IMG/VR virus record: IMGVR_UViG_3300030102_004306
Coordinates: 1-33,051 of that record
DNA length: 33,051 bases
Reading direction: 5' to 3' (one strand)
Source of the DNA: a virus
Positions 4,855-33,042 of the stretch are shown one piece after another (the stretch's first letter is position 1; every line of letters starts with the position of its first letter). The notes below the pieces were generated by a model. The model had not been told where the DNA came from. It made no database searches and saw nothing but the letters and a program-made list of their open reading frames with translations. The position numbers and the translations under genes were made by a program.

Positions 4855-5749
4855 TAGACGGCTGCATGATTTCGAAAACTCAGAGCCTAAAGATTACTAC
4901 AAAATATATTACGCCAATCGTAAAGGTGTACACCATAAACTAATTAATCTTAAATATATAAAAATGTTTGGTGATGCCATACAGGGTCATGTAGAGCCTT
5001 ACGAGTTAGATTGGGAAGAAAAGGTTAGAAAATATAGATATACTGGCGGTTACGGAAATTTTCACCTTATGCGTTTTAGTAAAGGTTTTTATATAGATGC
5101 TTTTCCCATTTGGGGTTTCTACAAAGATGCGCCAGAAGATGAAACTATTTTAGATTACTTTTCACAATATTCTAATGATAGATATGGGCAGCATGAAGGT
5201 ATTTTTAAAAAGCAAAGACCTTATACCTTGTTTCCGTTGCAAATGACGGGTCAAAAAGATTTGTTAGGAACAATAAAATATATTGCTTGGGCAACTGCGT
5301 CAAAAACATATACAATATTTAAAACTCATCCGTGTGCAGGGGGCAACACTCACTATGATATATTATGGGATATAGCAAAAAAACATAATATTCTTAGCGA
5401 ATATACTGAATTAGTAGATGGTTGCAGGTCAGAGGAACTTATTGAGGGTGCGGATAGAGTTGTGAGTATAGATAGCGGCCTTACATTTAAAGCTATTTTG
5501 CATGACAAGCCTGTTTGCACATTGCGCGGCCCAAGTATGACAACCGATATTGTGCCGTTAGTAGAAACAGACGATAGTATATTAGAAGTTAAATCGGTTC
5601 CTTATAAAGATAAAATTAAATGGCTTAACTGGTTTTACGGTAGAGTTTGTATAGATTTTGATAAAGAAGATTACAAAGATCAATTACTTGCAAAATTACA
5701 CAAGTACAAAAAACAAAACATGACGGATTATGAGGTGCATAAATGGTAA
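4838..5749 (+). CDS. Capsule/Kdo-type glycosyltransferase-like protein, TTG start
   Basis: The start is a TTG preceded at 7 bases by AGGAAGAAGG, a strong ribosome binding site; the first in-frame ATG comes only 42 codons later, so TTG is preferred. The 303-residue protein has RPYTLFPLQM (127-136), FKTHPC (161-166), then HNILSEYTELVDG, and VVSIDSGLTFKAILHDKPVC (208-227). This KTHP motif plus a serine-rich loop before gKPV resembles the GT-B half of capsular polysaccharide or KpsS/KpsC-like Kdo transferases. Such enzymes add sugar to lipid-linked glycans at the inner membrane. In a phage it might modify host surface glycan or a virion glycan. The family call is from motif recall. Confidence 0.65.
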   Translation: MVSFDNRRLHDFENSEPKDYYKIYYANRKGVHHKLINLKYIKMFGDAIQGHVEPYELDWEEKVRKYRYTGGYGNFHLMRFSKGFYIDAFPIWGFYKDAPEDETILDYFSQYSNDRYGQHEGIFKKQRPYTLFPLQMTGQKDLLGTIKYIAWATASKTYTIFKTHPCAGGNTHYDILWDIAKKHNILSEYTELVDGCRSEELIEGADRVVSIDSGLTFKAILHDKPVCTLRGPSMTTDIVPLVETDDSILEVKSVPYKDKIKWLNWFYGRVCIDFDKEDYKDQLLAKLHKYKKQNMTDYEVHKW

Positions 5750-6276
5750 TTACGGAACCTTGGGAGCATATCGTCATAGACAATTACTATGATGCAAATG
5801 TTTTTAAAACTATACAGACAGAAGCAAAACGGTTTTTAAGCAAAAACATAAACAGAGAAACAAGAAAGCAAGCTTTTGCATTTCCTGATAACGAATTACT
5901 AAAACAAGCTATTGAAAGCAATAAAATTAATGAAAGCTATTTTGACCAATTAACATACCATAGGCCATATTCAGAAATTAGTTTATTTTGGGAAGTAAAC
6001 TTTCTTAGAGGGCCACATAGATATCCAATACATGATGAAGCTCAAAGAAAAGTATTAAGTTGTGTGGTTTATGTTGATCCAATAGAAAACTCTGGCACAA
6101 GATTGTACGACAAAAATAAAAAATTAATAAAAGAAATAGAATGGAAGCCTAACAGAGCATTAATTTTTGCAGCGCAAGATGATGTAACGTGGCACGATTA
6201 TCATTGTCCTAAAGGAAGTTTTCGTGTCACCATAAACCAATTTTTAGAGCGTCCTAGAGATGAACAGACTGCTTAA
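5743..6276 (+). CDS. 2OG-Fe(II) oxygenase-like protein, 177 aa
   Basis: The ATG overlaps the previous stop by 7 bases. Motifs fit a prolyl-4-hydroxylase-type beta helix: YPIHDEAQRKVLSCVVYVDP with H97 and E99 as the HxE metal pair, then SGTRLYD (117-123), then WKPNRALIFAAQDDVTWHDY with distal His 151 (or H154), and R161 in SFRVTINQF as the 2-oxoglutarate anchor. The N-terminus (WEHIVIDNYYD, 7-17) resembles the lead-in strand of phage 2OG enzymes. It is the second 2OG-like protein in the cassette and, unlike the first, has an acidic second ligand. The substrate is not evident; a sugar, peptide or fibre residue is possible. Confidence 0.7.
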   Translation: MVITEPWEHIVIDNYYDANVFKTIQTEAKRFLSKNINRETRKQAFAFPDNELLKQAIESNKINESYFDQLTYHRPYSEISLFWEVNFLRGPHRYPIHDEAQRKVLSCVVYVDPIENSGTRLYDKNKKLIKEIEWKPNRALIFAAQDDVTWHDYHCPKGSFRVTINQFLERPRDEQTA

Positions 6277-7036
6277 ATATGTTGAGTTAAATTTATCTGA
6301 GTTATGCAATTACACTTGTAACTTTTGCCCAAGAGGTCATGGCTATCCAAATAGCAATGTTCATATGTCAATGAAAACGGCCAAAACAATTGTAAAACAG
6401 CTAGAGGAGCTAGGACAGCCCGTTACAGTGCAGTTAGCAGGAAGAGGTGAGCCAACATTAGCAAAAAATTTTGGCGCAATAGCGGAGCTTCTTATCGACT
6501 TAAAGAACAGATCGCTTATTGAAATAGAAATGAATACAAACGGTAAAAAGGTGGATGAATACTTACATTTGATAGAACAGTTCGATGATGTTGTTTATAA
6601 TGTTTATGCTGAAACTTTAGAAACTCCACAGGCAATACAAAGAAAATATCCTTTTTTCAGAATTAAAAACAAAAAAGACCCATTTTTTAGAAACTGGAAA
6701 ACAAGATCGGGATATATACCAGACCAAATAAATCCAGAACCAAAATATAATCATCATATTTATGGTGAGATGTGTCACAAACCGTTTGAGGTGGTATATA
6801 TTAACTGGAATGGGGACTATAATTTATGCTGTGATGTGTGGAAAGACATAGAGGCTATAAGTAATATATTTGATGAGCCTATTAAAGATTACACAACAAA
6901 AAACAAAAGATTAAACGAATACAGAAGCACTTTAATTAAAGGCAAGCGTAGTATGTCACCATGCAATGAGTGTAATATTCAATGCAGTGTGGAGTTTCTA
7001 GTAAAAATGAAAAATTTGCATCATGTTTCAACTTAA
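6260..7036 (+). CDS. Radical SAM protein with C-terminal auxiliary cysteines (SPASM/twitch-like)
   Basis: The 258-residue protein has the canonical CxxxCxxC motif (C16, C20, C23 in ELCNYTCNFCP), which binds the catalytic 4Fe-4S cluster, and a GRGEPTL segment (61-67) equivalent to the SAM-binding GGEP motif. MNTNG (91-95) fits a strand of the partial TIM barrel. At the C-terminus C172, C190, C191, C235, C238 and C242 (PCNECNIQC) form an auxiliary-cluster domain of SPASM or twitch type. Enzymes of this kind modify peptides, sugars or cofactors by radical chemistry. It overlaps the previous gene by 17 bases and the next by 14. The substrate is unknown. The family call is strong. Confidence 0.9.
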   Translation: MNRLLKYVELNLSELCNYTCNFCPRGHGYPNSNVHMSMKTAKTIVKQLEELGQPVTVQLAGRGEPTLAKNFGAIAELLIDLKNRSLIEIEMNTNGKKVDEYLHLIEQFDDVVYNVYAETLETPQAIQRKYPFFRIKNKKDPFFRNWKTRSGYIPDQINPEPKYNHHIYGEMCHKPFEVVYINWNGDYNLCCDVWKDIEAISNIFDEPIKDYTTKNKRLNEYRSTLIKGKRSMSPCNECNIQCSVEFLVKMKNLHHVST

Positions 7037-7688
7037 TGGCATATGGCTGTCGGCTCCAAGTGATCATGTTTTTGATGTTGTGTCAAAAGGCAAACAATAT
7101 CACGCAGGAATGATAAATTATGCTCAATCAGTATGTAATAATAAAAGGGTGGCGATAGATATAGGTGGTTGCTATGGTTTAATATCCAATCAAATGGCAG
7201 AATTTTTTGACACTGTTTATAGTTTTGAGCCAAGTCCAGAGGCTTATGCTTGTTTAGTGTTAAATGCTCAAGATAATATTAATACTTATAACTTTGGTAT
7301 AAGTGACCAAGCAGAAACAAATAAAACATTATATTTTACTAGAAATGATGGGACAAATAGGTATGAGAAGCCTTCGTTGAATAACTGGAACCGATGGAAA
7401 AGAACAATGAAAACCTTTTCTACTGAGGTTAAAACACTCGATAGTTTAAATGTAAAAGATGTTGATTTAATAAAATTTGATGTTGAAGGGCATGAGTATT
7501 TATCTTTGCAAGGATCACTAAAAACAATTAAAAAATACAAACCTGTTATTATTATGGAGCAAAAACCTTTACGCGACACTACGGTTTTGTGCGATAGAAA
7601 ATTGTTAGAAATAGGTTATACTAAAGATAAAGTTTTTCGTCAAAAAGATTGTATTTATGTACATAGACAGAGCAGTCATAGAAGTTAA
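7023..7688 (+). CDS. FkbM family methyltransferase
   Basis: The 221-residue protein has the Rossmann SAM-binding motif VAIDIGGCYGL (43-53), the acidic-loop motif YSFEPSPEAY (66-75), and the FkbM signature DLIKFDVEGHEYLSLQGS (148-165). FkbM enzymes O-methylate sugars or polyketide-like molecules and are frequent in surface-polysaccharide loci and marine phages. The normal domain is essentially complete. It overlaps the radical SAM genes on both sides (14 and 32 bases), so the three are very likely translated together. Methylation of a sugar made or attached by the neighbouring glycosyltransferase is a reasonable inference, but it is not shown. Confidence 0.9.
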   Translation: MFQLNGIWLSAPSDHVFDVVSKGKQYHAGMINYAQSVCNNKRVAIDIGGCYGLISNQMAEFFDTVYSFEPSPEAYACLVLNAQDNINTYNFGISDQAETNKTLYFTRNDGTNRYEKPSLNNWNRWKRTMKTFSTEVKTLDSLNVKDVDLIKFDVEGHEYLSLQGSLKTIKKYKPVIIMEQKPLRDTTVLCDRKLLEIGYTKDKVFRQKDCIYVHRQSSHRS

Positions 7689-8544
7689 CGGTGCTTGCAA
7701 TTATAGTTGCAATATGTGTCCACAAACAGATGGTAGGGATGTAGATTTCTTAACAGAAATGCCTCTAAGCACATTTAAAGGTTTGCTGTTAGAGTTAAGA
7801 CCCAATGTTGTTAATCTAGATGGTTCAGGAGAAGCTACACTTACAAAAGAATTACCAAAATATATTGAGGCTGTTAAAGAAGTAGGAGCAAAAGCTTATT
7901 TATTTTCTAACGGTTTAAAAATGCGTAATCAATTTATGAAAGATTGCGTTGATGCAGGTTTAGATTTCTATAGGTTTTCTATTATAGGTTATACGCCGCA
8001 ATTATATGCTAAATGGATGAACAGTCGTTCTTTTTATTGGGTGTTAGAAAATATGCAAATGATGCGTGATTATGCTAAAAAGTGTAAGGTTGCTAGTTAT
8101 CATTTAATTTTAGACAACAGCAATATTGAGTACGAAAAGCAAAAGTATTTAGAAATCAGTGATGGCGGTTTAGTAGAAATATGGAAAATGCACAATTGGT
8201 CTGGTGTTTATCACAGTGACAGGAAAGGGAAAAAAAGAACGTGTGGGAGGCCGTTTAGTCCTGATGCAGTCATTAGAGCAAATGGAGCCGTTCACCCTTG
8301 CTGTCAGGTCTTAGGGCGCGATACAGAAGCAACTTTGGGTAATATAAATAAAAATACATTTGAAGAAATATATACAGGTCAGGTCTATCAAAATCTCAGA
8401 GAGCAACATAAAAATGGGGATTATCCAAGTTTTTGTAAGGATTGTGATTTCTTAATAGAAGATAGCGAGGTTTTGGTGTATAGCAATTACGCAAAGGAAA
8501 ACGTTATGAATGGCGCTGAATTTTCTTTGAAGGATTATAGATAA
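7657..8544 (+). CDS. Radical SAM/SPASM-domain protein, 295 aa
   Basis: The CxxxCxxC motif is C14, C18, C21 (GACNYSCNMC). LDGSGEATL (54-62) takes the place of the GGEP motif, and AYLFSNGLKM fits the next barrel strand. The C-terminal part carries C196 (TCGRPF), C215-C216 (HPCCQVLGR), and C260/C263 (FCKDCDF), a reduced SPASM-like cluster site. LGNINKNTFEEIYTG is the linker often seen between the SPASM cysteines. It overlaps the FkbM gene by 32 bases, and its stop overlaps the next ATG (TAATG). It is not a simple duplicate of the radical SAM protein at 6260, as the barrels differ outside the motifs. The substrate is unknown. Confidence 0.9.
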   Translation: MYIDRAVIEVNGACNYSCNMCPQTDGRDVDFLTEMPLSTFKGLLLELRPNVVNLDGSGEATLTKELPKYIEAVKEVGAKAYLFSNGLKMRNQFMKDCVDAGLDFYRFSIIGYTPQLYAKWMNSRSFYWVLENMQMMRDYAKKCKVASYHLILDNSNIEYEKQKYLEISDGGLVEIWKMHNWSGVYHSDRKGKKRTCGRPFSPDAVIRANGAVHPCCQVLGRDTEATLGNINKNTFEEIYTGQVYQNLREQHKNGDYPSFCKDCDFLIEDSEVLVYSNYAKENVMNGAEFSLKDYR

Positions 8545-28888: not shown

Positions 28889-29095
28889 ATGAGACAAAGA
28901 CAAGAAGTAAAGCAGCAGTGCTTGCGATTAAGTAGCAAGACTACTGTGATGCTTGATAGTATAAGTAACCATACACGCATACCTAAAGGTGTGTTAGCTG
29001 ATATGGCTATGCAGGATTATCTGTCTGACCAAATCAAAACACTTGGCATAAATGTCGAGTATGATGATGAGGAGCTAATAGAGACAGATGGTTAA
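28889..29095 (+). CDS. Ribbon-helix-helix-like DNA-binding protein, 68 aa
   Basis: The ATG follows GAGAGGCGACT. The protein has a basic N-terminus, a beta-strand QQCLRLS, then helices SKTTVMLDSISNHTRI and PKGVLADMAMQDYLSDQI, which fits the CopG/Arc ribbon-helix-helix fold (strand, helix, turn, helix). These proteins bind DNA as dimers and often autoregulate. The gene lies directly beside the divergent promoter with an inverted TTGACA/TGTCAA pair, which might be its operator. It overlaps the next gene by 8 bases. Confidence 0.7.
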   Translation: MRQRQEVKQQCLRLSSKTTVMLDSISNHTRIPKGVLADMAMQDYLSDQIKTLGINVEYDDEELIETDG

Positions 29096-29489
29096 CAGTC
29101 GTGCTAAAGGGGCAACCTTTGAGCGAGACATTTGTAAGAATTTACAACTAGACCTTAATATTAAGGGTTTCGTTAAAAGGGATATAGAGCAGTATAGGAC
29201 GGCAGATAGAGGAGACATATTAATAGAGGACGATAGTTTTCCATACCTTATTGAATGTAAAAGGTATAAAGCAGGAAACACTTATTCAGATGCTTGGTGG
29301 CAACAGGTAGAAAGAGCCGCTGATACTATGAATAAAGAACCTGTCTTAGTCTATAAGTTTGATAGACAACCTATTACAGTCGTTATGCGATTAGAACACT
29401 TGATGAAAGACGGTGCGCTGCATGAAGAAAAGGTAAAAATGGATTGGGAAGCTTTCTGTTATGTGGCTAGAGAGAATTGGAACAGCTAA
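29088..29489 (+). CDS. PD-(D/E)xK nuclease, Holliday-junction resolvase-like, 133 aa
   Basis: The protein begins VNSRAKGATFERDICKNLQL, with E12 in the first helix. The active-site residues are D43 (in RGDILI) and E56-x-K58 (in FPYLIECKRYK), the PD-(D/E)xK pattern, followed by AWWQQVERAADTMNKEPVLV where the basic partner helix sits. The length and order match phage resolvase-like PD-(D/E)xK proteins. Role: cutting branched recombination or replication intermediates before packaging. It stands directly before a RecE-like exonuclease and an SSB-like protein, a recombination module. Confidence 0.8.
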   Translation: MVNSRAKGATFERDICKNLQLDLNIKGFVKRDIEQYRTADRGDILIEDDSFPYLIECKRYKAGNTYSDAWWQQVERAADTMNKEPVLVYKFDRQPITVVMRLEHLMKDGALHEEKVKMDWEAFCYVARENWNS

Positions 29490-29501: not shown

Positions 29502-30341
29502 ATGACACACATTGATTATGAGATGAGTAATGAGGATTACCACAATACGGAACTACATCCGCATTTTAGCTCGTCAGATATTAAAGAAGTGGTTAAAAAC
29601 TCACCGCTTCACTGGATAATAAAGCAAGAGCTACCTAGAAAAGAATCTACGCTTGCCATGCTGTTAGGCAGCGCAGTACACGCATTTATATTAGAGCCTG
29701 ACAAAGGCGAGTTTGTGCGTGGTGAGGGTTCAGGTAGAACTAAGGATTTCAAGACGAAGAAAGAGGAGCTTGCAGAAAAAGGTAAGACACTTTTGCCTGA
29801 AGCTACCTTCGATGATGCTTTGCGTATTGCTACTAAAGCGATGGAGACAAACGAATACCTAGTTAAGCTTTTAAAAGACAAGCGCTTCGTTGCTGAAGCT
29901 TCTATCTTTACAGAGTGTTCAGAAACAAAGCTTGATATACGCTGTAGGCCTGACGGTTTAATTAAACCAGACGCTAAAGGCAAAGGCGGTATAATCTTTG
30001 ACATAAAAACCACTAACAACATACATCCATTTACTTTTTTTAAGGATGTTAAAATGTGGTCTTATGACATTCAGGCAGCGTTCTACTTGCATACTTGTGC
30101 AGCAGCAGGATTGCCTATTGAGAAGTTTATCTTTTTTGCAGTCTGCAAAGAGACAGGTATTTGTCAGGCGCACGTTTTATCGGAATTGTATTTAGCACAC
30201 GCACACAAGCGTATGTTAAAAGCAATGAGTGACCTATTAGACAGTCAAGTGTCAGGTCGCTTTACAACAGGGTGGGAATTGGAGAATACTATCCACCTAC
30301 CTCAATATCTTCAGGAACCCTCTGAAGAGAAACCATTTTAA
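29502..30341 (+). CDS. RecE/ExoVIII-like exonuclease (DUF3799-type PD-(D/E)xK), 279 aa
   Basis: The ATG is preceded by GAAAGGCTAAAA. The N-terminus (YEMSNEDYHNTELHPHFSSS, then DIKEVVKNSPLHWIIK) is typical of DUF3799 exonucleases. LLGSAVHAFILEPDKGEF gives H60. RCRPDGLI gives D151, and IFDIKTTNN gives D167-x-K169, the catalytic set of the PDDEXK fold. SYDIQAAFYLHTCAAAG is the usual QxxxY helix. This enzyme resects double-stranded ends from 5 to 3 prime and works with an annealing or single-strand binding protein. The family call is strong. Confidence 0.9.
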   Translation: MTHIDYEMSNEDYHNTELHPHFSSSDIKEVVKNSPLHWIIKQELPRKESTLAMLLGSAVHAFILEPDKGEFVRGEGSGRTKDFKTKKEELAEKGKTLLPEATFDDALRIATKAMETNEYLVKLLKDKRFVAEASIFTECSETKLDIRCRPDGLIKPDAKGKGGIIFDIKTTNNIHPFTFFKDVKMWSYDIQAAFYLHTCAAAGLPIEKFIFFAVCKETGICQAHVLSELYLAHAHKRMLKAMSDLLDSQVSGRFTTGWELENTIHLPQYLQEPSEEKPF

Positions 30342-30360: not shown

Positions 30361-31023
30361 ATGAAACATAAATTTATGAACGTTACCGCACGTTATCCAA
30401 AGCTTAATCAACCTTACGTCTGGTCTGATAAAGATAATAGTTATATTGGGTGTAAATGGGATATCCAAGGCGCTGCATTTTACTTAGACGCTTATCTAAG
30501 CAATGAACAATGGCAAGAAGCTGACAAGCTCATTAAGCAAGTTTGGAAAGAGTTTGTTGATGAACAAGAAAAAATTGGCAAACCAGTTAAAAAGCCAAAT
30601 GAAATGCGTAATCCTTTAGACGAAGAGGATGGCAAAGGCTACGTTAAAATGAAGCTTAAATGTTACGATGAAAAAACTAAAGTTAGACAGCTTGATTCTG
30701 ATCTTAAAACACTACCGCCAAGCTTTGAGTTAACTTCAGGCAGCAATATAAACTGTAAGGTTATTATCAAAGCATACAAAAGCGGATCAAGCCAAGGCAT
30801 AACCTTGCGATTAATTGATGTGATGGTCAACGAATTAGCTGACAAGCAGGAAGCACCAATAGACTTTAAACCTAATCCTAATGGTGGTTTTGTTTATCAA
30901 GCTGAAGAGGAAGCTGCGCCAGTTACCCAAGAGAAAGTTTTATTCGGTGATATGGAAGCTGATGTTGCAAGCGAAAATCAAACCGAATCAAAACAAGATT
31001 TTGAGGACGAAATACCCTTCTAG
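30361..31023 (+). CDS. ssDNA-binding protein (DUF2815-like) with SSB-type C-terminal tip, 220 aa
   Basis: The ATG follows GAAAGGCTAATGAT. The N-terminal text (VTARYPKLNQPYVWSDKD, then YVKMKLKCYDEKTKVRQLD, then GSNINCKVIIKAYKSGSSQG) matches the DUF2815 family of phage single-strand binding proteins with an OB-like core. The C-terminus is acidic and ends QDFEDEIPF, close to the DDDIPF tip by which bacterial SSB recruits host repair and replication proteins. It is followed by a strong terminator. It probably coats single-stranded DNA made by the exonuclease and during replication. Confidence 0.85.
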   Translation: MKHKFMNVTARYPKLNQPYVWSDKDNSYIGCKWDIQGAAFYLDAYLSNEQWQEADKLIKQVWKEFVDEQEKIGKPVKKPNEMRNPLDEEDGKGYVKMKLKCYDEKTKVRQLDSDLKTLPPSFELTSGSNINCKVIIKAYKSGSSQGITLRLIDVMVNELADKQEAPIDFKPNPNGGFVYQAEEEAAPVTQEKVLFGDMEADVASENQTESKQDFEDEIPF

Positions 31024-31038
31024 CCATGTAAAAAAAAG

Positions 31039-31061
31039 AAGCCCCCTCATTGAGGGGGCTT
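31039..31061. terminator. Strong stem-loop terminator, possibly bidirectional
   Basis: AAGCCCCCTC and GAGGGGGCTT form a perfect 10-bp GC-rich stem with a 3-base loop. On the plus strand it is followed by a short TAT, which makes a modest T-tract. On the minus strand the stem is followed by TCTTTTTTTT, a far better terminator tail. It separates the recombination genes from the primase-helicase gene and lies 15 bases after the SSB stop. Confidence 0.85.
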
Positions 31062-31140: not shown

Positions 31141-33042
31141 ATGTTACAAGATATAGATAATAAACGCAACATATCCACACCATATTGGAGTGATTATGCC
31201 GCAGGAATTATACACAGATTAGAACTTAAAAAAGTAAACGAGCATGAGTATTGCGGTGGTTGCCCTAATTGCGGTGGAGTTGATCGGTTTCGCATTAATA
31301 ACTACAATGGTGAAATCCGTGTGAACTGTAGAAAATGCAATGACTTCGCGCAGATATTTAAAATACTTAGGGAAGACTTGCAGTTGTTACCAGAATACTC
31401 AGCAAATAAAGATGTAGTCACTTTACATAAAGTTGAGGACATACATCCGTACCTAACACGCAAGAGAATTAAATTACACAACGCTGAAGTCGATGAGACA
31501 GACCTTGTAGTGCCTATTATAGATAAAACAGGTAAAAGGCAGGGATCGCAGTTTATTGACGCTGATGGGAACAAAAAGTTTAACTTTGGGTTAAAGTTTA
31601 AGGGATGCTTCTCTGTACTCAATGGCAAGATAAAAGACTTTGCTTGGCTGTGTGAGGGCTTTGCTACGGCTGCGGCTGTAACAGAATCAACTGGTCAGCC
31701 TGCAATACACTGTCTTAACGCTGCAAATATAATAGATGTGATCGAAGCATTTAAAGAAGTCAGGCCTGAAGTCGAGCTAATAATAGCAGGAGATAATGAT
31801 GAGGCAGGGCGCAAGGTATGCGAGAAAGCCTTAGAGCAACACGGCATCCAGTACGTCTTACCTGATACTGAGGGTTTAGATTGGAATGATGTTTATATCG
31901 CTAGAGGCGCAAGCTTTACTAGAAAAGCACTAAAACCGTCTAGCGTTTTAGATGAGATAGTTATGCCTGAAGACGCAGTAATACCAACGCAATCGAACTA
32001 CATAGTTAAAGGTTGGTTATCTGAAGACACAACTAGCATTGTATTCGGTGCGTCAAATGTAGGTAAAAGCTTTTTCTGTTTAGATATGGCTTATCATATT
32101 GGAGCTAATGAAAACTGGATGGGCTGTAAGGTTAGAGGCGGCTCAGTGCTTTACCTTCAAACTGAAGGCGGTACAGCGTTCAACACACGCTTAGTCGCGC
32201 TTAGAAATAAATATCCTGAGTTTAAAAATGTTAAACTTGCAGTCAGAGCTTTACCTATAAATCTATTTAATGATGAAGGTGACATAGCAAAGATTAAGCT
32301 ACTTATAAAAGAGATCGGCAAAAAGCATGGAGATGTTAAGGTTCTGTGCGTGGATACAATCGCCAGAGCTACTCAGGGGCAGCTAGAGGAAAATTCAAAT
32401 TCAGAGTTTTCTAAATTTTTAGCTAATTTAGATTTAATTCGAGCAGAGACAGGTGTGCATATTATGCTTGTAGGACACACTGGCAAAGACTTGAGCAAGG
32501 GCTTGCGCGGCTCTTACTCTGCTGTAGCCGCAGCAGAAACATTAATAGAAATAACTTTAGATAGTAGCTCAAGCATTAGAACCGCTGTAACAACTAAGCA
32601 GCGAGACATGGAGCTAGGCAAAAGCATAGACTTTGTGCTTACCAGAGAAGCGCTTGGTGAGGATGAGGACGGTGATGAAATTACAACTTGCACCATTAGA
32701 CAGCCAACTGAGGAAGAAATAAAAGAAAACAATAAGCCAAAAATATCTGGCAAAAATCAATTATTGTTTAAACAAGTGTTCTATCAGCTTCGAGGCGAGG
32801 GCATAGGTAAGCCTAACCCAAGCGGAGCAGGGTGGCCTAAAGGTAAAACTTACTGGTGCATAGATGAAGAGACAATTAAGGATCACTTCAAAGGTAAGCT
32901 TGTAGGAGCTTCTAACCCTGCACAAACCTATAAACAGGCTGTAACAGCTTTAATCAGCGCTGGGCATATAGCTGCAAATGAAGGTTACATTTGGTTTGTA
33001 GATAAAGATGGAACAATTAAAAATCCGTTTGATGATGACTAA
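31141..33042 (+). CDS. Bifunctional primase-helicase (zinc finger, TOPRIM, RepA-like ATPase), 633 aa
   Basis: The protein has three parts. A zinc-binding domain lies at 38-66 (CGGCPNCGG with C38, C41, C44, then NCRKC with C63, C66). A TOPRIM domain follows with E172 (LCEGFATAAA) and D218/D220 (AGDNDEAGRK). A RecA/RepA-like ATPase has Walker A GASNVGKS (303-310) and Walker B VLCVDT with D405. This is the layout of phage primase-helicases that lay RNA primers and unwind DNA at the fork, like P4 alpha or T7 gp4 in concept but with the AAA_25-type ATPase. The C-terminal 100 residues (RQPTEEEIKENNKPKISGKN onward) look like a winged helix. Its stop is 9 bases from the window end. Confidence 0.9.
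   Translation: MLQDIDNKRNISTPYWSDYAAGIIHRLELKKVNEHEYCGGCPNCGGVDRFRINNYNGEIRVNCRKCNDFAQIFKILREDLQLLPEYSANKDVVTLHKVEDIHPYLTRKRIKLHNAEVDETDLVVPIIDKTGKRQGSQFIDADGNKKFNFGLKFKGCFSVLNGKIKDFAWLCEGFATAAAVTESTGQPAIHCLNAANIIDVIEAFKEVRPEVELIIAGDNDEAGRKVCEKALEQHGIQYVLPDTEGLDWNDVYIARGASFTRKALKPSSVLDEIVMPEDAVIPTQSNYIVKGWLSEDTTSIVFGASNVGKSFFCLDMAYHIGANENWMGCKVRGGSVLYLQTEGGTAFNTRLVALRNKYPEFKNVKLAVRALPINLFNDEGDIAKIKLLIKEIGKKHGDVKVLCVDTIARATQGQLEENSNSEFSKFLANLDLIRAETGVHIMLVGHTGKDLSKGLRGSYSAVAAAETLIEITLDSSSSIRTAVTTKQRDMELGKSIDFVLTREALGEDEDGDEITTCTIRQPTEEEIKENNKPKISGKNQLLFKQVFYQLRGEGIGKPNPSGAGWPKGKTYWCIDEETIKDHFKGKLVGASNPAQTYKQAVTALISAGHIAANEGYIWFVDKDGTIKNPFDDD

Follow-up and report, generated by a model that had tools for sequence, protein, structure and literature searches.

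The C-terminal docking peptide of bacterial single-stranded DNA-binding proteins (SSBs), the SSB-Ct, reads DDDIPF in E. coli, and according to passages of PMC5872125 the pocket that receives it holds the ring and the carboxylate of the terminal Phe, the acidic residues being held by a basic rim. Phage SSBs with similar ends are already known, as are T7-type SSBs with acidic aromatic ends. An example of the former is the SSB of phage HK620, a DUF669-type protein outside the bacterial family, whose SSB-Ct-like tip (NDYPPF) mediates protein binding, the partner shown in the relevant passages of PMC5928155 being the phage annealase Sak4 rather than a host protein. Among the T7-type proteins, gp2.5 of T7 itself ends in EEADEDGDF, and the T7 genome carries a family-A DNA polymerase; Enc34-type proteins (Enc34 ORF6, DUF2815, PF10991) finish in DEDEV, EEV, DDV or DGI wherever the end is readable (leaving aside L109, and also L102, for which the coordinate gave no sensible C-terminus), and the Enc34 genome likewise encodes a family-A polymerase. 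In the case of the CRP-822-type roseophages, passages of PMC12629253 list an SSB and state that the subgroups in which a polymerase gene is missing probably depend on the replication machinery of the host; those same passages make no mention of the SSB tip. In a literature search, with most subscription papers outside its scope, no T7-type SSB was found described as carrying an IPF tip.

The stretch of DNA analysed here (the window) comprises the first 33,051 bases of a virus record of 38,944 bases, and the gene of interest occupies positions 30361 to 31023 on the plus strand, encoding a protein of 220 aa that is predicted to be a T7 gp2.5-type SSB. It matches PHROG 112 (Gp2.5-like SSB) over residues 4–210 with an E-value of 5.3e-11. 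No Pfam family is matched at E 0.001: PF21265 (SBB_T7, gathering score 27 bits) gives no row at all for this protein, some of its relatives (L006, L007, L029 and L082) scoring 16–25 bits and so remaining under that cut-off, and PF00436, the OB-fold domain of bacterial SSBs, gives no match in a listing that extends to E 10. A search of PDB sequences also found no match. The original prediction had placed the protein with DUF2815, but PF10991 reaches only 14.5 bits (E 0.028) against a gathering cut-off of 26, and T7 gp2.5-type SSB is the better name; it is at the level of the fold only that homology to the DUF2815/Enc34 type is supported.

That fold was obtained as an AlphaFold2 model built on 26 aligned sequences (mean pLDDT 72), in which an ordered core extends to about residue 170 and is followed by a tail with pLDDT below 50 at residues 174–217. 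The best fold match in the PDB is T7 gp2.5 (1je5; Foldseek E 3.2e-9; VIA Z 16.4, rmsd 2.8 Å over 154 residues), model residues 1–172 aligning to 1je5_B as would be expected of a Gp2.5-type extended OB fold. Other strong matches are to two phage-related DUF2815-type proteins (4jg2 and 4klk) and to Enc34 ORF6 (5odj, 5odk and 5odl), also a phage SSB and of the same fold class. Bacterial SSB structures, in contrast, reach Z values of only about 6–7, far under those of the T7-type matches, and because of this difference in the fold comparison the body of the protein is, by its model, of T7 gp2.5/Enc34 type, with the tip alone bacterial in type. With T7 gp2.5 the protein shares not only its fold but also an acidic, low-confidence tail and a place in a phage replication module; it differs in ending EDEIPF (unlike any of the Enc34-type ends listed above) and in coming from a record in which no polymerase was found.

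As regards the tip itself, positions 30994–31023 read CAA GAT TTT GAG GAC GAA ATA CCC TTC TAG, and the ending QDFEDEIPF that first drew attention to this gene is thus exact in the DNA, closing the open reading frame. The SSB-Ct-like tip proper, DFEDEIPF, lies at 30997 to 31020 (plus strand), an acidic stretch with I-P-F at the extreme C-terminus, and is preceded by a linker of low model confidence, probably disordered, at 30880 to 30996 (plus strand; approximately residues 174–212). The tail as a whole is rich in Asp and Glu, and its low pLDDT suggests that it is unstructured. Among 1,691 distinct open reading frames of at least 100 aa from the viral loci, just 78 finish in an end of the acidic-[ILVA]P[FW] kind, and since 76 of these belong to relatives of the SSB (the remaining two being other proteins), the tip is not a chance ending. 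Within the otherwise variable linkers of the relatives a DPF-like motif recurs (e.g. DDPFGLPP); at similar places (30868–30969) the protein of the window reads IDFKP and VLFGD.

Conservation of the tip, unlike that of the linker, reaches far past the nearest relatives. The original prediction was staked on the tip being present in close relatives, and it is kept in all five of these (L001–L005). More widely, of the 138 distinct proteins of the clade among the matches listed, 133 have [ILVA]P[FW] as their C-terminal end, and when the 138 are clustered at 80% identity a free tip is found in 16 of 18 clusters. In the remaining five proteins (L069, L195, L362, L372 and L381) the motif is present but has 1–7 extra residues after it, which should spoil docking through a free carboxylate; in L362, L372 and also L195 the IPF or VPF motif runs on into AYEWRV, LYEWRI or DFAHVA, and the tip would thereby be buried. 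Entropies anchored at the C-terminus, calculated together with codon usage for 13 free-tip clusters out of 15 in an earlier and smaller set of relatives, are 0 bits for D(−5) and P(−2) and 0.39 bits for the last residue, as against roughly 2.2–3.4 bits for most linker positions. All four Pro codons and both Phe codons occur in the tip, and it is because all four Pro codons are used, with a linker that is almost unconserved, that selection can be said to act on the peptide.

Some remarks on sampling apply to these counts. The relatives came from the four scans that found the clade and from six Roseobacter phages (four of which were read); each scan contributed the 80 loci that best matched a query which itself bears the tip, and distant members without a tip could in consequence be under-sampled. 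Three of the scans used search patterns drawn from the SSB body only, and in the fourth one of six patterns came from the tail. The 211 sequences gathered include some contigs more than once, and 138 is the number of distinct proteins. Left out of it are L361, where the frame is broken in the match; L017, which is partial (and ends FEDEIPF); L001–L005, which are the same contigs as L013–L017; roseophages CRP-821 and CRP-822; and L165 and L166, two Rhodobacteraceae genome-bin contigs carrying the phage SSB. The last two are probably phage contigs binned together with a bacterium, and in L166 the protein ends DLEDEIPF.

That the tip resembles the C-terminus of bacterial SSB, as originally claimed, is borne out by direct comparison. 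Out of 30 Rhodobacteraceae SSB loci 29 could be read, and these end in DEIPF (24 loci), DDIPF (4) or DEVPF (1), so that all 29 finish in [IV]PF and the DEIPF of the window is the commonest ending. It should be borne in mind that a first, less directed reading gave 25 of the 30 host ends, and that 29 was reached partly by requiring [ILV]P[FWY] close to the C-terminus, which means that the four ends added in this way are not unbiased. The same two leading forms occur in the phage clade, DEIPF in 88 and DDIPF in 37 of the 138 distinct proteins. The resemblance is one to hosts of related phages, rather than to any identified host of the window's own phage.

The SSB gene stands in a recognisable module, all on the plus strand. 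Upstream lie a PDDEXK_15 endonuclease resembling a Holliday-junction resolvase (29088 to 29489; PF24608, phrog_244) and, as the immediate neighbour in the conserved part of the module, a PD-(D/E)XK exonuclease VIII-like protein (29502 to 30341; PF12684, phrog_412, E 1.5e-49); the next gene downstream encodes a Toprim/AAA_25 primase-helicase-like protein (31141 to 33042; PF13362, PF13481). The order exonuclease, SSB, primase-helicase is common to the window and to annotated roseophages. The CRP-822-type roseophages have homologous SSBs with tips DDEIPF, DDDIPW or DDALPF, and no polymerase was found in them either; they differ in that these SSBs are only about 30% identical to that of the window, whose portal and capsid proteins are of SU10 type. 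The exonuclease also has an acidic-PF end (EEKPF, 30324–30341), corresponding to EEQPF, EENPF, EDQPF and EENPF in L001–L004 respectively, and such an end is present in 5 of 5 genomes of the window clade; in other relatives (a set of 102) the endings are AF, DGEI, DHGL and others. Relatives of the primase-helicase (95) mostly lack it; L074 and L075 do end in SEPF and DAPF. A tip common to the whole module was considered, and is not claimed in view of the other endings of the wider exonuclease relatives and of most primase-helicase relatives. Directly after the SSB stop codon, at 31039–31061, there is a strong terminator-like hairpin, whose T run lies on the minus strand.

The nature of the ending can also be set against the presence of a DNA polymerase. 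Family-A polymerase (PF00476) was found in 0/26, 0/10 and 0/15 clade records, and so in none of 51; 26 of the 51 records are at least 29 kb long, among them four complete circular genomes of Roseobacter phages, absence from incomplete contigs being weak evidence, and one of the 51 (L372) has an extended tip. By comparison, each of the 19 records sampled for T7-type SSBs with other endings has a PF00476 match with an E-value of 0.001 or lower (8/8, 7/7 and 4/4), and in 17 of these it exceeds the family cut-off. Neither PF07733 (Pol III alpha) nor PF00136 (family B) was found in any of 36 clade records; PF03175 gave the same zero, but for want of a functioning positive control that result carries no weight. 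In the virus record of the window itself, no polymerase of family A, family B (PF00136) or Pol III alpha type was found. A PF10991 protein occurs in one of 390 Rhodobacterales genomes, as a prophage SSB (101.5 bits) that ends DDDFLAA and adjoins a protein with a sub-cut-off match to PF00476 (E 1.8e-5).

A strict rule by which an IPF tip means no polymerase was nevertheless rejected. It is broken by L347 (759–1211) and L348 (1770–2222), which carry the same SSB, ending TEDEVPF, together with a family-A polymerase in the same short records; these form one separate lineage of SAR11-phage type, and their tip is apparently an independent gain of a similar ending. L349, which ends EDSPF and in which no polymerase was found, agrees with the rule, but on a long branch, and L161 (DEEDPF, with polymerase) was scored as having a non-tip ending. 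In a tree of the SSB cores the clade forms one branch (99/99), with three changes of tip state and two of polymerase state. These are too few independent changes for a rule: there are only three independent pairs, and for that reason the correlation between tip and polymerase absence reaches no significance and is suggestive only, not independent evidence. What can be said is that these phages may plausibly need partners from the host, because those bearing the tip show no polymerase of the families searched.

The reading that we prefer, and to which we would give somewhat better than even chances, is that this is a T7-type SSB whose convergent SSB-Ct-like tip binds host proteins and so brings replication or repair enzymes to phage DNA. 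The disordered acidic tail on the T7-type OB-fold body would carry at its end the bacterial docking peptide, arrived at by convergence; as the body coated the phage ssDNA the tip would be freed, and could then bind the SSB-Ct pockets of host proteins, for which candidates are Pol III chi, DnaG, PriA and RecO. These candidates are drawn in part from passages of PMC5872125. Host enzymes would in this way reach DNA that the primase-helicase and exonuclease of the phage have opened, no polymerase encoded by the phages themselves having been found. Preferential binding of ssDNA, release of the tail and every one of these partners are things that we infer, and the capture of host proteins by the tip, which the original prediction had put forward, is plausible.

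Other explanations of the tip must be weighed against this. It could serve to recruit partners encoded by the phage itself, either the primase-helicase or the exonuclease next to it, in which case the likeness of the tip to host SSB would reflect convergence on a general acidic-aromatic dock. There are precedents, in that the last six residues of HK620 SSB are needed for both binding and stimulation of Sak4 (in passages of PMC5928155) and the tail of T7 gp2.5 is implicated, according to parts of PMC5686142, in binding the T7 polymerase and primase-helicase; the gene order shared with annotated roseophages would also suit such an arrangement. However, polymerase-bearing T7-type relatives mostly end in DGDF, EEF, DEDEV or similar whereas the clade keeps I-P-F, the resemblance to host SSB goes further than a generic acidic-aromatic tail would call for, and the scan of eight window proteins recognised no Sak4-like annealase, so that we regard recruitment of phage partners as unlikely, with perhaps one chance in a handful in its favour. 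A tail that merely regulates its own protein, by competing with ssDNA for the OB cleft or by helping to reject dsDNA, with the exact IPF ending having no partner, finds a parallel in the Enc34 SSB, where removal of 21 residues from the tail leads to dsDNA binding, and in tail effects for T7 gp2.5 and T4 gp32 (all from passages of PMC5686142); but regulation by charge needs no invariant Pro and aromatic end while the remainder of the tail drifts, and sister clades manage with other ends, which makes it improbable. More improbable still is a decoy that pulls partners of host SSB off the host DNA, whether to shut down repair and replication or to avoid host nucleases. Near identity to Rhodobacteraceae SSB tips speaks for a decoy, and the data nowhere separate competition from productive recruitment, yet a place in a replication and recombination module fits recruitment better.

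Returning to recruitment of host enzymes, a broader form of it may be offered tentatively, as something that falls a little short of an even bet: that in this widespread, polymerase-less marine phage clade the host-matched tip makes a T7-type SSB into an adaptor bringing the host replisome or repair factors to the phage DNA, and that the ending of a T7-type tail in general records the replication partner, IPF denoting the host and DF, EF or EV the phage's own polymerase. Were this so, one could predict from the final residues of a phage SSB whether host or own replication enzymes are used, and these phages would constitute a tip swap made by nature, with which to test what SSB-Ct contacts suffice to hand DNA to the bacterial replisome. 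It would also mean that the bacterial SSB-Ct has evolved convergently on the OB-fold body of a different SSB family.

A few minor observations may be added. In L099, an Enc34-like phage whose SSB ends DDEEV, a separate protein of 124 aa (1219–1590; PHROG 8318, function unknown) ends in EWDDDIPF. Within the window, positions 5743–8544 hold, amid tail-like genes, a weak sub-cut-off match to 2OG-Fe(II) oxygenase, two radical SAM/SPASM proteins and an FkbM methyltransferase. Outside the window, in the same virus record (L011, 8014–8913, minus strand), there is an anti-restriction protein of ArdC type, combining ArdcN with a metallopeptidase.
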